Source of the DNA: an uncultured Microcaldota archaeon
Lineage (GTDB): Archaea; Micrarchaeota; Micrarchaeia; Micrarchaeales; Micrarchaeaceae
NCBI GenBank assembly: GCA_903884115.1
Contig: CAISDH010000031.1
Span: 1 to 63,410, forward strand
Length of the DNA stretch: 63,410 bases
Direction: 5' to 3'
Part shown: piece by piece, positions 7,016 through 17,630 of the stretch
How the letters are laid out: every line of letters starts with the position of its first letter
Position numbering within the stretch: position 1 is the first letter of the stretch
Position numbers and translations under genes: made by a program
The notes under the pieces: generated by a model
The model's input: the letters and a program-made list of their open reading frames with translations, nothing else
Databases searched by the model: none
Told to the model about the DNA's origin: nothing

Positions 7016-7389
7016 CCGCCTGCACCCCCCAGGGCGTACGTGCCGTTTTGAAGCCTGGAAAGTTCCAGGTGCTCCATGCCCCCTTGCCTGCCGCATGCTG
7101 ACTGCAGCACTGTCAGGTTGCCGTCGATGCTGAACCCGACTGCGCCTGCATCTGCCTCATTGCCGTTGAGCGTGCCGTTGCAGAGCCCTGCAGGCACGAC
7201 TGCGTAGAAGGCGCTGCTCTCGTACGCCATGTTCGCGTTTATCAGCGCTATAAGCTCTTCCGTGTACGCCCTGCTGGTGCGCGCCCCCTGGCTGCTCTGC
7301 ACGTAGAGAAATATGGATATCGCCGACACTGTCGAAGCTGCGACAAGCGCGGTATAGAGCATGAACTCCAACGAAAGCTGCGCCCTCAC
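7012..7389 (-). CDS. Class III pilin-like protein (125 aa)
   Basis: The GTG start (7389) gives MRAQLSLEFMLYTALVAAS, matching the canonical Gln-x-Ser-x-Glu-Phe class III prepilin motif exactly. One helix is followed by a globular part of about 90 residues with two Cys residues. GGTG lies just upstream as a Shine-Dalgarno-like site. It is translationally coupled to the next gene. Likely a pilin subunit processed by a dedicated prepilin peptidase that is not in this window. Confidence 0.7.
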   Translation of the reverse strand: MRAQLSLEFMLYTALVAASTVSAISIFLYVQSSQGARTSRAYTEELIALINANMAYESSAFYAVVPAGLCNGTLNGNEADAGAVGFSIDGNLTVLQSACGRQGGMEHLELSRLQNGTYALGGAGG

Positions 7390-7668: not shown

Positions 7669-8448
7669 CTATAGCATCCCAACCGATAACACTGAAGCGA
7701 CCTTGAACACGAAAATGGCGATCGCGCATGAAAGCGCAGACTTCTCTGCCCTGGCCTCAATGCTCTCCTTCATGCTGTACTTGAAATTCAGCACGTTCAG
7801 GTACGCAATGTAGAACGCAAACACGGCGATAAGCGCAGGCACGCTCGGATGCCCTGCACCTTGCATGCCTGCCGTGAACTGCATTATGTTGAGGCTTATG
7901 CCTGCGAATACCGGGAAGAAGAGCACTGAGCCTATCTGCGTTATGGAGAGCGCGCTTCCCAAAGCGCCCATGCTCTTGAGTTCCTTGATGCTTCTCTGTA
8001 CGGCGTGCTTCCTTACCTCTGCAAGCCGCATGCGCAGTTCCGTGCCTTCGTCGAGCCTGCTTATCACCGCAGAGGCTGTGCCTCTGAGGGCGTAGCTGTC
8101 ATAGCGCAGCAGCGCGGAAAACGCCTGCCTTGCGTTTGAAGAAAGCGCATACGTGCGGATTGCGCACTGCATGTCCTTGCAGAAGGCGAACCTGCTATTC
8201 AGGGATTTCTCCAGCAGAGTGAGCGTGTTGACGGAATCGGAGTAGTTCTCAAGCACGTTGCCTATGAATTGGAGTGCATCTCCTTCCACTGCGCTGGCGC
8301 GTGTGCCGCGCGCCTTTGCTGCCACGGCGAAGCACGCCATGCACGCGGCGAGCAGCGCCGCTGCAACAGGGACCGTGCCCATGAGCGTGAACGCTGTGCA
8401 GAAGAGCGCAGCAAGGCAGCACGCCACGCAAACAGCATCAAACTTCAT
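7669..8448 (-). CDS. TadC/T2SSF-like pilus platform membrane protein (259 aa)
   Basis: Two N-terminal and two or three C-terminal hydrophobic segments flank a cytoplasmic helical region (ALQFIGNVLENYSDSVNTL ... RDEGTELRMRLAEVR-like), the layout of T2SSF/TadC platform proteins. It is the second half of a pair: the preceding gene encodes a similar protein and overlaps it by 11 nt. I use ATG 8448 because a longer frame would add an implausible Ser/Arg leader inside the neighbour. Membrane platform proteins connect the ATPase to pilin polymerisation. Confidence 0.7.
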   Translation of the reverse strand: MKFDAVCVACCLAALFCTAFTLMGTVPVAAALLAACMACFAVAAKARGTRASAVEGDALQFIGNVLENYSDSVNTLTLLEKSLNSRFAFCKDMQCAIRTYALSSNARQAFSALLRYDSYALRGTASAVISRLDEGTELRMRLAEVRKHAVQRSIKELKSMGALGSALSITQIGSVLFFPVFAGISLNIMQFTAGMQGAGHPSVPALIAVFAFYIAYLNVLNFKYSMKESIEARAEKSALSCAIAIFVFKVASVLSVGML

Positions 8449-10665: not shown

Positions 10666-10684
10666 AGCATCATAGCGTCATAGC
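10662..10684. repeat. Three 8-bp direct repeats over the ATPase start codon
   Basis: TCATAGC occurs at 10662, 10670 and 10678 with an exact 8-nt period. Read on the minus strand this gives successive ATGs in different frames, each closing within a few codons at a TGA (for example ATG-ACG-CTA-TGA) before the true start at 10665. This could act as tiny upstream frames affecting initiation, or simply be slippage. Confidence 0.7.
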
Positions 10685-10687
10685 ATC

Positions 10688-10708
10688 GATTGTACTTATG
10701 ATACAATC
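10688..10708. promoter_or_regulatory. 7-bp inverted repeat in divergent promoter region
   Basis: GATTGTA (10688-10694) and TACAATC (10702-10708) form a perfect inverted repeat with a 7-nt spacer, lying between the leftward pilus operon (start 10665) and the rightward gene at 10877. A T/A-rich TATA-like run (AAAATATATATAC) follows at 10723-10735 for the rightward direction. Position and symmetry suit a dimeric regulator; the winged-helix protein at 11678 is an obvious candidate but that is inference. Confidence 0.5.
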
Positions 10709-10876
10709 TATTTACTTCAGTAAAAATATATATACCTTTGTATAACTTACAGCATATGGGCGTTTTTATTGCGCCCAGACCCTGAGTCTGTCTTTACATA
10801 TGCCAAAAAACCCTCGCAAGTCGCAACCGGAGAAAGCAATAAGTATTTAGATAATTACAAAATACTGCGCGATATT

Positions 10877-11524
10877 ATGGCAGTGCCTGCAGAAAAAATT
10901 GCCACCAAAACAGAGAGCAATGAATTCTATGCAGTACGGGGAGGCCTGTGGATCTCAAAACATGCTATGACGTGGGAGCACGGGCAAAAAGCCGCCCTGG
11001 ATTTTGCCGGATGTCACATTGCTACCAGGCAAGAACTGACTGTCCTGGCATATACAAATAAACAGATCAGAAGGAAACTCGTAGATGAGTGCATATGGGC
11101 CGGCAAGATCGGTCTCACCCTCTCCGGGCCTTGCAAGTGGCTCAAAAACGGAGAGCTTGTTCAGCTGTTAGACAAGCCATGGGGCGATCTCTCTGAGGCG
11201 CAAAAGGCCGATATCAGGGAAGCATTCTACAATTTGCCAATTGACAATAAAGCTTGGGCTTATCCTGGCGAAAACCCTGTGACTGTCGGAATCGACGAGT
11301 ATGGCGGGTTCAGAAGTACGGATGCCAATGGTTTCAAAAGGATGGATTTCAACGCTTACGTTTGGAGCCCGACTGATACTGCCTGGGTGGTCCTTGTGCC
11401 AAACAACGCGCAAATAGCCGGCAGCCCTAAGACTGCAGCAGGCCTATTGCGCACAGAGGAAGAGCAAGGCATATTCCTATCAGACGAAGAAATGGCACTC
11501 AGGGCGTATATGGGTGCAGACTAA
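10877..11524 (+). CDS. Uncharacterised protein (215 aa), paralogue of 12234-12812
   Basis: I do not recognise this family. There is no signal peptide or membrane segment. It aligns by eye over most of its length to the protein at 12234-12812: DFAGCHIATRQELTVLAYTN against RFPGYRAATWLEVVTWACKN; AWAYPGENPVTVGIDEYGGF against VWVSPGKGHVCVAISEDGKL; VVLVPNNAQIAGSPK against LFLIPDNAQIAEIPQ. It ends with the tail MALRAYMGAD, which recurs in the 58-aa protein at 12009. The start is ATG 10877, with TATTTAGA about 27 nt upstream; a TTG at 10769 behind a stronger TATA at 10723 would add 36 residues. Possibly an accessory or host-interaction protein. Confidence 0.7.
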   Translation: MAVPAEKIATKTESNEFYAVRGGLWISKHAMTWEHGQKAALDFAGCHIATRQELTVLAYTNKQIRRKLVDECIWAGKIGLTLSGPCKWLKNGELVQLLDKPWGDLSEAQKADIREAFYNLPIDNKAWAYPGENPVTVGIDEYGGFRSTDANGFKRMDFNAYVWSPTDTAWVVLVPNNAQIAGSPKTAAGLLRTEEEQGIFLSDEEMALRAYMGAD

Positions 11525-11579
11525 TTGCGGCAAGCATAAAAAGCCCTGCCGATTCTGCCTTTCTTTATTTACTTGGGTG

Positions 11580-11595
11580 GAAGTATATATACTTC
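11580..11595. promoter_or_regulatory. 16-bp perfect palindrome overlapping a TATA box
   Basis: GAAGTATATATACTTC at 11580-11595 is a perfect palindrome whose centre is a TATA element. It is preceded by TATTTACTTGGGTG, which resembles TATTTACTTCAGTA before the TATA run at 10723. The shared architecture suggests that both promoters of this cluster answer to the same regulator. It lies 83 nt before the winged-helix gene's start. Confidence 0.55.
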
Positions 11596-11677
11596 TATAC
11601 AAACTATTTAACCTACAGGAAAGTAATTTACCAGGCTTCGTGCATAGGCTTTTAAACGTTCATTCACAAACATATAC

Positions 11678-12004
11678 ATGGCAAAGCGTGCCAATGAGAA
11701 GGACGAAGTCTGGGCCCTGAGGAAGGTGCTCACCAAGCCTAACTTTGCGGTTATGAATCTGCTTCTGCAGAAGTCTCCAAGGTCGACCAGGGAGCTCTAC
11801 GCAGTGCTAGAGAAACGCTTTACCAGAAAGACGCTTATTCTGACTCTAAGAGAATTGTCCCTCAACCTGAACGTGCTGCAGCCGACGCACATAAGGACCG
11901 AGAAGGGCTACGGCCTGGGCTACAGGCTCAACCCAAAGATCAAGGACATAGTCAAGATGGTGCAGAAGTTCTCCAAGATGATAGAGAACGTAAGGGACGT
12001 CTGA
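11678..12004 (+). CDS. Winged-helix DNA-binding protein (108 aa)
   Basis: A compact helical protein with a likely winged helix at about residues 22-85: helix FAVMNLLLQKS, turn, recognition helix region RSTRELYAVLEKRFTRKTLILTLRELS in pieces, then a wing with TEKGYGLGYRLNPK. It ends with an amphipathic helix that may dimerise. A TATA-like TTTTAAAC at 11650-11657 lies about 26 nt before ATG 11678, indicating a leaderless transcript. It sits between two paralogous genes and near two palindromic sites, so it is the probable local regulator. Confidence 0.65.
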   Translation: MAKRANEKDEVWALRKVLTKPNFAVMNLLLQKSPRSTRELYAVLEKRFTRKTLILTLRELSLNLNVLQPTHIRTEKGYGLGYRLNPKIKDIVKMVQKFSKMIENVRDV

Positions 12005-12008
12005 TGCT

Positions 12009-12185
12009 ATGGTGGAAAAGAAGTCAACCGCATCAAAAAATATCCCTCCAGTCAAAGCGCAAACCACCGACGAGCAAGACGAAATAATGGCAGACATGTT
12101 GCGCGCAGAAAAGAAACGAAAGGAATTTGAAGCACTTGAACCGGCTGGAGAATGGAAGCTCAGGGAATACATGGGCACTGACTGA
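12009..12185 (+). CDS. Small charged protein (58 aa) with YMG tail
   Basis: ATG 12009 lies 4 nt after the stop of the regulator. The product is Lys/Glu-rich and ends WKLREYMGTD, matching the end of the 215-aa protein upstream (ALRAYMGAD). A shared tail at the extreme C-terminus of two otherwise different proteins in one cluster supports a real gene and suggests a common binding or targeting function. Its neighbour 12234-12812 is a paralogue of the 215-aa protein but lacks the tail, so the tail may here be supplied by this separate chain (inference). Confidence 0.6.
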   Translation: MVEKKSTASKNIPPVKAQTTDEQDEIMADMLRAEKKRKEFEALEPAGEWKLREYMGTD

Positions 12186-12233
12186 CCATGCCCATTCTAT
12201 ATTTTGCTGATAACAAATACTGTTGAGGATATT

Positions 12234-12812
12234 ATGTCCGCACACACAGGAAAACAGGCAACTGCACCAGCAAACGTGGCATTCAATCAGATTGGAAGCG
12301 TGATGATGTCCTCTATGCCAGTACCTGTTACAGAAATGCCTGACGTGGTCGCACGTTTTCCAGGATACCGAGCGGCTACCTGGTTGGAAGTGGTGACTTG
12401 GGCATGCAAGAATTACGAGGCACGGCCAGCTATCCTAAAAAGCCAGGTTCTAACAAGCGATACTAGTATTATGCTTTCTTCCGGGCCTTATAGGTTTGGT
12501 ATTGGAATACTTGAGAAATTATCCGAAGAATCATGGGAAACACTCACCAAGCAAGAGCAGAATGCAATACTTGAAGAGTTTGACAGGCTGCTGTCTTACG
12601 AGCGGGTCTGGGTATCTCCTGGCAAAGGCCACGTGTGCGTTGCCATCAGTGAAGACGGCAAGCTGAACGTATCTGCCAAAAGTCGCGGCGCTTGTGGGCT
12701 GCTATTTCTAATTCCAGACAACGCGCAAATTGCAGAAATACCTCAGATCACGACAGTTGTGAATTGGGGACGCACAAATCTTATACGCAATGATGCATGC
12801 GCTGATCACTGA
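12234..12812 (+). CDS. Uncharacterised protein (192 aa), paralogue of 10877-11524
   Basis: The family is unrecognised. It shares the W-x-x-PG...V-x-V-x-I-x-E-x-G block and the terminal PDNAQIAEIP block with the 215-aa paralogue, plus a matching SGP tripeptide mid-protein. It is soluble. ATG 12234 is preceded by GAGG at 12225-12228. The C-terminus diverges (ends RNDACADH) and lacks the YMG tail. Its last 7 nt overlap the end of the convergent ligase gene. Duplication and tail loss within a 2-kb cluster suggest an accessory, evolving system. Confidence 0.65.
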   Translation: MSAHTGKQATAPANVAFNQIGSVMMSSMPVPVTEMPDVVARFPGYRAATWLEVVTWACKNYEARPAILKSQVLTSDTSIMLSSGPYRFGIGILEKLSEESWETLTKQEQNAILEEFDRLLSYERVWVSPGKGHVCVAISEDGKLNVSAKSRGACGLLFLIPDNAQIAEIPQITTVVNWGRTNLIRNDACADH

Positions 12813-14603: not shown

Positions 14604-17573
14604 CTAATGGCACGTGGTGCTCGAGCTCTGCATCCATCCGCAGCCTGTGCTGCTCGTGCAGATGTTGCCGCCGCTGTCAATGTTGCTTGAGCTGCCCTGC
14701 GACCCTGACAGGCATATCAAGCCGCTGTTCTTCGCCTGCAGCCTGTTTTTCGTTATAACAGAGGCAGTGGTGTTTGAAAGCACCATCCCTGTGCCTGTGC
14801 TGCCCGTTGCAGTGTTGTTCGAGATTTCAATTCCAATCGAATTTGAAATTCGGTATGCAGTAGATGCCAGTGCTACGATGTTGTTGAGCAGAGAGGAGTC
14901 CAGGCCGCGCAAAATGCTTATGCCATAATACGATGCAGTGACGTTGTTCGCCAAGACCGTGGCGCTGGACACATTTGTTAGCGCAATCGCGGCATTCGTA
15001 GTGCTGTTGTCGAGTATCTTGTTGTTGAAAACTGTTATGCCAGAGTTCACCGCCACTATCGGACTGGCGAAACCCTTGAGGGTGCAGTTCTCTATGTTCG
15101 CATTATTCACGTTCTTGAAGGATGCAAACGTGCCTCCATTTGTCGCTATGATTGTGTGGCCGTTGCAGTTTATGGTGGTGCCATTGGCATACACGCTGTA
15201 GCAGGTGGCTCCGTAGTTGTACTCTGCGTCATTCTGAAGCGCGTAGGTGTCTGCCTGCAACGCGACAGCACAAGTGATCTGTGTTGCGCCCTGTAGAAGT
15301 GCTGCCATCCACGAGCATCCGATCTTCGTGGTGCCGTAGTTTATGCCTCCTATCTCGTCATTTATCCCGCTGTTGCCGTTGCAGACGTAGTCTGCATGGC
15401 CGCTGAGCTGCATCGTGTTGTTCACGACTATGTTGTTTTGCGAATTGCCCGTGAAATACATTCCTATGTAGTCAGTTCTTCCGTTGTTGTCGGCTATTAT
15501 GTTCCTCTGCGAGTTGTTGACCAGTATTCCGATGTTGCTGCCTGTGCCATAAGCGAAGCTGTTATTCATGATGCTGCTTACCGAGACGTGCGATAGCTTT
15601 ATCGACGCATTCGCTGCGCCTGTGACGAGGTCTCCTTCAATGGCGCTTTGGTTGACATTGCTCAGGCTTATGCCATAACGAGAGCTTTGCACCGCAACGT
15701 CGTATACGGCTATGGCCGACGAGTTGGATACGTTGATTCCTGCCGTGTATCCGTATATGGCGCAGTTCCTTATCGTGACGTTGTTCCTGCCGTTGATGTA
15801 GAATGCAGGCCCTGGTGTGGTGCTCATCTGTGACAGGGCATGCCCTGTGCAGTCGAGCGTGACGTTGTTGGCGTTGACGGTCATGCAATACGCCGGCTGG
15901 CCTACGATGTTGGCAGTTAAGGTGTAATTGCCCTGCCTGTTCAGTGTGGCACATCCGATTAACGGATAGTATGAAAGTCCTGACGAAACGTCCTGGTTGC
16001 ATTTCGCCCACTTGGTGTTGGTCAGCCCGCAACTCGTCTGCTGCATCAGGTTGTAGCTCGCGTTCACGGAATCAGGAGTGGCATAGACATCTATTATGGA
16101 GTTGTTGAACGCAACGCCCTTGCTGAACAGGTTTCCTACCGACTGGCTCAGGTATATGCCGTACTGGTTCTTTGAAGCATTGAATCCCAGAAAGTTGTTT
16201 GCGCTTGAATCCAACAGGTATATGCCGTACTTGCTCCCTGCGCTCGTGATGCTGCTGATCACGGAAGATGTGGTGTTCAGAAGCGCAAGGGATGCCGTGT
16301 CGTTCCTGAAGGTCATATTGCTTACATACGCGCCTGTAGAATTGCTCAGCTTCACACCGTAGCCGGAACCTCTTATGCTGCAGTTGGTTATTGTGATGTT
16401 GTACCTGCCGTCTGCAAGTATGGCCACTGCCGAATTTGTTATCGAGAAGCCCCTGCAGTCAAGCGTGGTGTTGTTAGTGTCCATTCTTATGCACGGCATG
16501 TCTGACTGCCTGAAAGTAGGATTCGACGTGTTCTCGAACATCGATGTGTCAAGGTTCGAGGTCAGCTGGTATTTGCCAGGAGATACCACCGAACCGCAGC
16601 TGTTTACATTGCTGCCTAGGTGTATTAACGAGAGGTTCGCAGGCGTATTGATGCCTCCGCATGTGACGAATGCGCAGCCTGTGTTGTTGTAGCAGTAATT
16701 TCCGCTAGCACGGCTGCTTCCCGGGAAACTGTTTGCGATCCCGCAGTGGAATGATGAAGGATTGTAGTTGAGCGTGTTGTTGATGTAGCTGTTGCCTGTG
16801 GAATTCACGCCTATGCCGTAGACCCTGTTGTTCTCTATGGTGTTGTTGTAGATAAGATTATTGCTTGATCCGTTTGCAAGGTAGAGTGCGCCATCCGTGC
16901 TGGATGCCTTCGACATTAAGTTGTTGCTCATGATGCTGTTCTGCGTACCGCTAAAGTAAGCATCGGAAAGATAGTTTGACGTGAGATTGTTGTTGCGCAC
17001 TACGACGTTGCTGGAATCCTGCGCGTACACCCCGTAAGAGAAATTCTCTATGGCACAGCCGGATACTGAGACGTTGTTATGCGCACTTATTTCTACCCCA
17101 TAAGTGAAAGGCGGCACTCCGGAATACGGCCCGGAGCCTATTATGCTGTGCAGGTTGCACACCAGCGCCACATCGCTTGCTGTGATGTTAATGCATGCGC
17201 CGCTGGGTATTGCTGTCTTTATGTTTGCCGACAGGAAATAGTTTCCGGGTTTGGAGATCTCTCCGCAGGCGCTTACCGAGCCTACCCTTATGACCTGTAT
17301 AGTGGTGGAAGTCGAGGTTGTGTTTGAGGGCTTGTGCAAAACCACCATAACGCCTGCAATTGCCACGATGACGATCGCTATGGCTGCGATTATCATGCGC
17401 GCTTCTGGCATATGGAACGCAGGTTTCTGCTGTTTTGCAGGCTGCTGCGCCTGTGAAGGTGCCGGTGCTTGCGTCGGTGAAGGAGGAGCCTGCGGCGTTC
17501 CGGCGCTCGGCTGCGATCCTGCTACTCCCTGAACACCTGTCGGCTGACTGCCCGAAACTATCTGGGCATACAT
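14604..17573 (-). CDS. Large surface protein of right-handed parallel beta-helix repeats
   Basis: This protein of about 990 aa has a Pro/Gln/Ala-rich cytoplasmic N-terminus, one signal-anchor helix (about 60-80) and a long Asn-rich ectodomain. The ectodomain consists of PbH1/NosD-type repeats (recurring N-N-x-I-x-x-N-x-I patterns). Four modules open alike with Cys...G-x-Y-x-L (CGEISKPGNYFLSANI, CGSVVSPGKYQLTSNL, CATLNRQGNYTLTANI, CAVALQADTYALQND) followed by a strand like NNVTLDCTGHAL. Its many N-glycosylation sequons fit a cell-surface carbohydrate-binding or structural protein. A TATA-like TTTTTAAAT at 17596-17604 makes ATG 17573 or 17582 the likely leaderless start; a GTG at 17591 is less likely. 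Confidence 0.8.
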   Translation of the reverse strand: MYAQIVSGSQPTGVQGVAGSQPSAGTPQAPPSPTQAPAPSQAQQPAKQQKPAFHMPEARMIIAAIAIVIVAIAGVMVVLHKPSNTTSTSTTIQVIRVGSVSACGEISKPGNYFLSANIKTAIPSGACINITASDVALVCNLHSIIGSGPYSGVPPFTYGVEISAHNNVSVSGCAIENFSYGVYAQDSSNVVVRNNNLTSNYLSDAYFSGTQNSIMSNNLMSKASSTDGALYLANGSSNNLIYNNTIENNRVYGIGVNSTGNSYINNTLNYNPSSFHCGIANSFPGSSRASGNYCYNNTGCAFVTCGGINTPANLSLIHLGSNVNSCGSVVSPGKYQLTSNLDTSMFENTSNPTFRQSDMPCIRMDTNNTTLDCRGFSITNSAVAILADGRYNITITNCSIRGSGYGVKLSNSTGAYVSNMTFRNDTASLALLNTTSSVISSITSAGSKYGIYLLDSSANNFLGFNASKNQYGIYLSQSVGNLFSKGVAFNNSIIDVYATPDSVNASYNLMQQTSCGLTNTKWAKCNQDVSSGLSYYPLIGCATLNRQGNYTLTANIVGQPAYCMTVNANNVTLDCTGHALSQMSTTPGPAFYINGRNNVTIRNCAIYGYTAGINVSNSSAIAVYDVAVQSSRYGISLSNVNQSAIEGDLVTGAANASIKLSHVSVSSIMNNSFAYGTGSNIGILVNNSQRNIIADNNGRTDYIGMYFTGNSQNNIVVNNTMQLSGHADYVCNGNSGINDEIGGINYGTTKIGCSWMAALLQGATQITCAVALQADTYALQNDAEYNYGATCYSVYANGTTINCNGHTIIATNGGTFASFKNVNNANIENCTLKGFASPIVAVNSGITVFNNKILDNSTTNAAIALTNVSSATVLANNVTASYYGISILRGLDSSLLNNIVALASTAYRISNSIGIEISNNTATGSTGTGMVLSNTTASVITKNRLQAKNSGLICLSGSQGSSSNIDSGGNICTSSTGCGWMQSSSTTCH

Positions 17574-17630
17574 GAAATACATAATAAGCACTAATTTAAA
17601 AATGTTGAATGCTAATCTATTTAATTACGT

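Follow-up and report, generated by a model that had tools for sequence, protein, structure and literature searches.

Two neighbouring archaeal genes, P1 and P2, most probably encode orphan ('frozen') members of an order-specific family of variable proteins, the targets of diversity-generating retroelements (DGRs), with a predicted C-type-lectin-like fold; we put the probability of this reading at about 0.86. Both genes lie in the window, by which we mean the whole analysed stretch of 63 410 nucleotides, and the genome from which the window comes (G000) is represented by a 92 %-complete assembly of 57 contigs. An uncatalogued multi-copy family of ultra-small archaea would thereby gain a definite origin and a chemistry open to testing, namely a lectin-like binding surface written by a DGR.

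The cluster consists of P1, a winged-helix gene, a 58-aa ORF and P2, and all four ORFs were found at the coordinates given in an earlier note on this DNA (Table 1). That note had also regarded P1 and P2 as paralogues, which was confirmed by a BLASTP alignment of 190 columns with 25 % identity (E 1e-10) in which the W-x-x-PG and NAQIA blocks that it had singled out are aligned; both proteins are strong scorers against the family profile. P1 and P2 are, however, no recent duplicate pair and have no supported sister relation in the tree. P1 resembles a homologue from another genus (41 % identity) more closely than it resembles P2, and is 41 % and 32 % identical to the members in genome G007. The 58-aa ORF is possibly left over from a P1-like tail, because the DNA pattern behind its last residues occurs elsewhere in the whole genome only at the end of P1.

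Table 1. Positions of the genes and sequence elements discussed, in the window unless a locus is named
Feature	Position	Strand	Description
Palindrome GATTGTA-CTTATGA-TACAATC (GATTGTA-N7-TACAATC)	10688..10708	.	ATPase/P1 intergenic region
Palindrome-TATA element TTTACTTCAGTAAAAATATATATACC, ancestral	10709..10752	+	Relatives without P1 have it between ATPase and winged helix
Palindrome TTTACTTCAGTAAA	10711-10724		
P1 leader	10838..10876	+	Family-type TATA box AATAAGTATTTAGATAA and start context AATACTG..GATATTATG; resembles leaders of DGR-linked members
P1	10877..11524	+	215 aa; probable orphan member of Micrarchaeota DGR variable-protein family, C-type-lectin-like fold (predicted)
P1 stretch matching variable region of DGR-linked homologues	11273..11401	+	NPVTVGIDEYGGFRSTDANGFKRMDFNAYVWSPTDTAWVVLV
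Second, diverged copy of palindrome-TATA element	11568..11619	+	Other side of P1; palindrome GAAGTATATATACTTC at 11580-11595
Winged helix	11678..12004	+	108 aa; lineage core protein outside P1/P2 family; presumed bystander between insertions
58-aa ORF	12009..12185	+	Last 8 residues LREYMGTD resemble P1 C-terminus LRAYMGAD; possible relic of P1-like tail
P2	12234..12812	+	192 aa; probable second orphan member, variable-region stretch shortened
P2 stretch matching variable region, shortened	12627..12713	+	
Shared upstream control region	L010 11245-11345 and 4320-4425; L015 7610-7720		

P1 and P2 have no family in Pfam, PHROGs, NCBIfam or PADLOC, in agreement with the earlier statement that they could not be assigned to a known one. 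The view that they are accessory proteins lacking an enzymatic motif also stood, and a host-interaction role is plausible. Sequence searches of the PDB with P1 and with the family profile gave no useful match. P1 had no match in viral contigs, and there is thus no sign of a viral origin for it. A weak match of P1 residues 45–168 to Pfam Fib_succ_major (E 0.17) scored 12.6 bits, far under the curated cut-off of 33.9, and membership of that family was rejected. Few homologues were found among 60 relatives by searching with P1. The profile united P1, P2, a member on contig C7 and the DGR target on contig C57 of the same genome in one family, with a fifth, weak member on C6 that has lost most of its variable stretch. 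Of 164 genomes from the order, 57 were found to have the family; a later profile detected it in 61 of 301 genomes of the phylum, with all listed hits falling within this order. Up to 17 hits were counted in a single genome (G089). These searches indicate that the family is specific to the order and is an uncatalogued Micrarchaeota protein family. A phylogenetic tree grouped P1, P2 and the C7 member with VP1, the G007 DGR target, and L004, the remote one (support 82/92), and placed the C57 target on another branch. The branches leading to P1 and P2 are long (1.6 and 2.6). When column entropy was computed over the family as a whole, which is very diverse, the variable stretch did not stand out.

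At the family level, the relatives of P1 and P2 are DGR target ('variable') proteins. Downstream of a P1 homologue in G007, a segment of the homologue's gene recurs in nearly identical form, and a reverse transcriptase (RT) gene comes next; the locus is a DGR that comprises a single RT along with two templates and two target genes. On C57, the genome of the window likewise carries a DGR, made up of a target gene, a template approximately 0.5 kb downstream and an RT. There and in at least six further genomes, family members stand immediately before a template repeat and an RT; the RT (PF00078) closely follows family members in G000, G003, G007, G064, G072, G106 and G127. Pairs of template and variable region (VR) were detected by script in 12 loci of the order, with mismatches located nearly exclusively at template adenines (757 mismatches at template A versus 41 elsewhere, for all pairs in all RT loci). 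The VR was within a family ORF in eight of the 12 order loci with a pair (L013, L014, L048, L049, L053, L055, L056 and L059).

A conserved element, AGGAACCACACA...GACATGAAATTCA, was observed upstream of each template (L008, at approximately 7022–7093 and at 8180–8256; L015, reverse strand) and probably belongs to the template RNA. The C7 family member, the C57 DGR target and a C7 gene that looks unrelated (11338–12003) have in common an upstream TATA-containing control region.

The majority of family members are located away from any RT. Template matches in three genomes indicate that such distant members undergo rewriting in trans. L004, the closest G007 homologue of P1 (41 % identity), lies 41 kb from the RT and carries a VR of G007 template 1, with a score of 120 versus a shuffled maximum of 37. 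The G089 template differs from two remote members at 18 and 21 adenines, respectively, and at no other base, while the G003 template and a member approximately 250 kb away have 19 mismatches at adenines and two elsewhere. The variable regions of several distant genes can be explained by a single archaeal DGR template. The 17 profile hits of G089, for which one template is known, are spread over contigs C69, C80, C25 and others (L153–L168), and two of these members, neighbours on C69, agree with the template at all positions other than adenines.

P1 and P2 have no such counterpart. The template of their own genome matches the C57 target alone. The possibility that the variable stretches of P1, P2 and the C7 member are hidden VRs of this template was rejected as scores were at chance level, and scores against the G007 templates were likewise at chance. 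The whole assembly contains one template element and one RT, and no template in it matches the variable region of any of the three proteins. As there is no template match and only a single template and RT, P1, P2 and the C7 member are interpreted as orphan members, although a template may be missing from an assembly that is 92 % complete. An alternative is that P1, P2 or both are active targets that are rewritten in trans by a template absent from the assembly. Rewriting of this kind is common in the family, the assembly is incomplete and divided into 57 contigs, and P1 retains both a family-type leader and a full-length variable stretch that ends in the usual AWVV block. Chance-level matches to the sole template element and RT of the assembly, together with the shortened variable stretch of P2, make continuing diversification of these genes quite improbable. 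A different explanation starts from a primarily invariant C-type-lectin-like family of ligand-binding proteins that is captured repeatedly by DGRs as a scaffold, P1 and P2 never having been diversified. The many members away from an RT and the lack of a template match for P1 and P2 fit this scenario, which we consider unlikely, though less so than continuing diversification: DGR targets occur on each of the tree's two main branches, including the group closest to P1, and several apparently 'free' members turn out to be remote targets once the template is known.

The earlier note had proposed structure prediction for both proteins, and AlphaFold2 models were obtained for P1 (pLDDT 82.9, from a 40-sequence alignment) and P2 (pLDDT 86.0). 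Confidence for P1 fell below 50 at residues 143–148, in a loop of the variable stretch, and in the tail. The leading Foldseek matches of both models in the PDB were C-type lectin domains, e.g. langerin and surfactant protein A, but these were weak, with E-values of only approximately 0.01 and TM scores of approximately 0.3–0.5. C-type lectins and a DUF1566 phage protein were among the best matches in a viral fold library; DUF1566 and Fib_succ_major are both C-type-lectin-like domains in Pfam, of which P1 is not a member. As the E-values are weak, the predicted C-type-lectin-like fold of P1 and P2 is based on the consistency of the Foldseek hits and on homology to DGR targets, for which this fold is expected (PMC5006420, PMC8144416), and the models are supportive rather than conclusive. 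The P1 model has a helix at residues 203–212, and family members have further residues after the variable region. Hydropathy analysis of P1 and P2 detected no transmembrane segment, and no signal peptide was apparent. Archaeal clade-5 targets similarly lack membrane or other known domains (Roux et al., PMC8144416).

In the related loci, the sequence of the variable region is replaced through mutagenic reverse transcription of a template repeat, near or distant. We infer that P1 and P2 were inserted as detached copies on each side of the core winged-helix gene and would now be fixed ligand-binding proteins, with specificities set while a template was still at hand. The presumed binding surface would lie in the internal variable region, with the C-terminal tail following it. 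With neither a signal peptide nor a membrane segment in evidence, both proteins may act in the cytosol or be exported by some other route, and their role would most likely be recognition of a molecule of a partner cell or virus.

The earlier note had proposed that the cluster is a self-contained accessory module (toxin–antitoxin, defence or host interaction) regulated by the winged-helix protein through palindromes at the promoters. The layout is indeed compact and the palindromes are real, with approximately 0.1 palindromes with arms of at least 7 nt expected per shuffled stretch. However, relatives without P1 have the palindrome-TATA element upstream of P1 (Table 1) in the corresponding position, so that this element is ancestral and predates the insertion, and P1 has its own family-type TATA box approximately 25 nt before the ATG. 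The winged-helix gene was present in 55 of 60 relatives, usually as a single copy and mostly with 60–79 % identity, and also occurs in genomes without the P1/P2 family. It is a core gene of the lineage and not a dedicated regulator. Homologues of P1 and P2 were scattered without the winged helix or the small protein, a distribution that the note itself had named as telling against its proposal, and the neighbours of P1 and P2 were not conserved as a two-gene unit among the relatives compared. Two genomes (G013 and G035) have the order ATPase–winged helix–ligase without P1, the 58-aa ORF, P2 or any other intervening gene. PADLOC gave no hit above noise: neither P1 and P2 nor the winged helix matched any of its families, and the 58-aa ORF reached only E 0.03. 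A palindrome-regulated module with a dedicated regulator was rejected on the basis of the gene distribution, the empty sites and the conserved palindrome. The module reading is thus largely refuted, and we assign it only a marginal probability, well below that of either alternative discussed above.

In other relatives, the gap between the winged helix and the DNA ligase holds different cargo and appears to be an insertion site, with HAD-type phosphatase ORFs in G034 and G006 and MsrA/MsrB-like ORFs in G001 (L066, L068 and L065; ORFs named by reading the sequence). In the window, the ligase gene is adjoined by a gene on the minus strand (14604–17591) for a 995-aa protein that reads as many parallel beta-helix (NosD-like) repeats and has a hydrophobic segment close to its start.

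DGR targets with a C-type-lectin-like fold, RT-less DGR fragments and targets rewritten in trans are already known (PMC4372165, PMC5006420, PMC10907252, PMC8867640). A close parallel is AvpA, a variable protein from a DGR of Nanoarchaeota whose C-type-lectin-like fold has been solved (Handa et al. 2016, PMC5006420). AvpA resembles the P1/P2 family in its fold (predicted here), its DPANN host, the lack of any other recognisable domain and a variable region that is internal, not C-terminal, and is followed by a (helical) extension. The two differ in that the variable region of the P1/P2 family spans approximately 34 codons and is followed by an A-x-VV-x-V block, the corresponding block of AvpA being RFxGV. 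There is no detectable sequence similarity between AvpA and the family: the profile gave two hits up to E 10 among PDB chains, neither named as a DGR protein, a comparison which assumes that the AvpA chain is among them. Paul et al. (2015) described RT-less DGR fragments of Nanoarchaeota with adenine-patterned variable regions and read them as fossils or remote targets (PMC4372165); the present family differs in that remote targeting is seen at the template level in three genomes and in the high copy numbers that it reaches, with 17 hits in G089. Dispersed targets that match one template at non-adenine sites have been reported as in-trans targets in Thiohalocapsa PB-PSB1 (PMC10907252) and as remote targets in Trichodesmium (PMC8867640). 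These are multicellular bacteria, with conflict-system targets in PB-PSB1, whereas the P1/P2 family consists of archaeal stand-alone lectin-like proteins. Among open papers, 'diversity-generating retroelement' and 'Micrarchaeota' co-occur in four texts, neither term being in their titles or abstracts, and none was found with both 'Micrarchaeota' and 'DGR'; a prior mention in the main survey (Paul et al. 2017) is possible.

A simple repeat was found to interrupt many of the DGR RT genes. The coding frame of 14 distinct RT loci is crossed, between the KGTH...RKV and KADIxHYF blocks, by a run of 8–11 G residues, and none of the 14 reads through. The halves of the gene are in a −1 relation in seven loci (L013, L014, L053, L054, L057, L060 and L075) and in a +1 relation in six (L049, L055, L056, L059, L072 and L073), while L058 is in frame across the tract but hits a stop. 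At the same site, (AG)9 or (AG)10 is present in L076, L079 and L086 and C9 in L084; L076 (off) and L079 (on) are from one MAG. RTs lacking the repeat are mostly open. Programmed frameshifting with one fixed shift is not favoured, as the frames are mixed. Homopolymer assembly error is a less likely source of the frame breaks because of the (AG)n repeats and the many independent assemblies. The pattern of repeats and frames points to phase variation of the DGR as the probable consequence. We tentatively propose, at somewhat less than even odds, that Micrarchaeota have a dispersed lectin-like recognition repertoire written in trans by one DGR, and that this DGR acts as a contingency locus whose RT repeat slips in and out of frame, such that diversification would be off in most cells and on in a few and orphans such as P1 and P2 would be archived products. 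No report of a repeat-switched DGR RT was found in open papers. If the repeat is a real switch, a targeted-mutation machine would itself be under phase variation. The repeat-bearing RT loci (L015, L014, L049, L053–L060, L072, L073, L075, L076, L079, L084 and L086) are nearly all out of frame. For the RT of the window's own genome (L015), the tract is a G9 at C57:32190-32198, the only run of at least nine G or C residues in 1.02 Mb.
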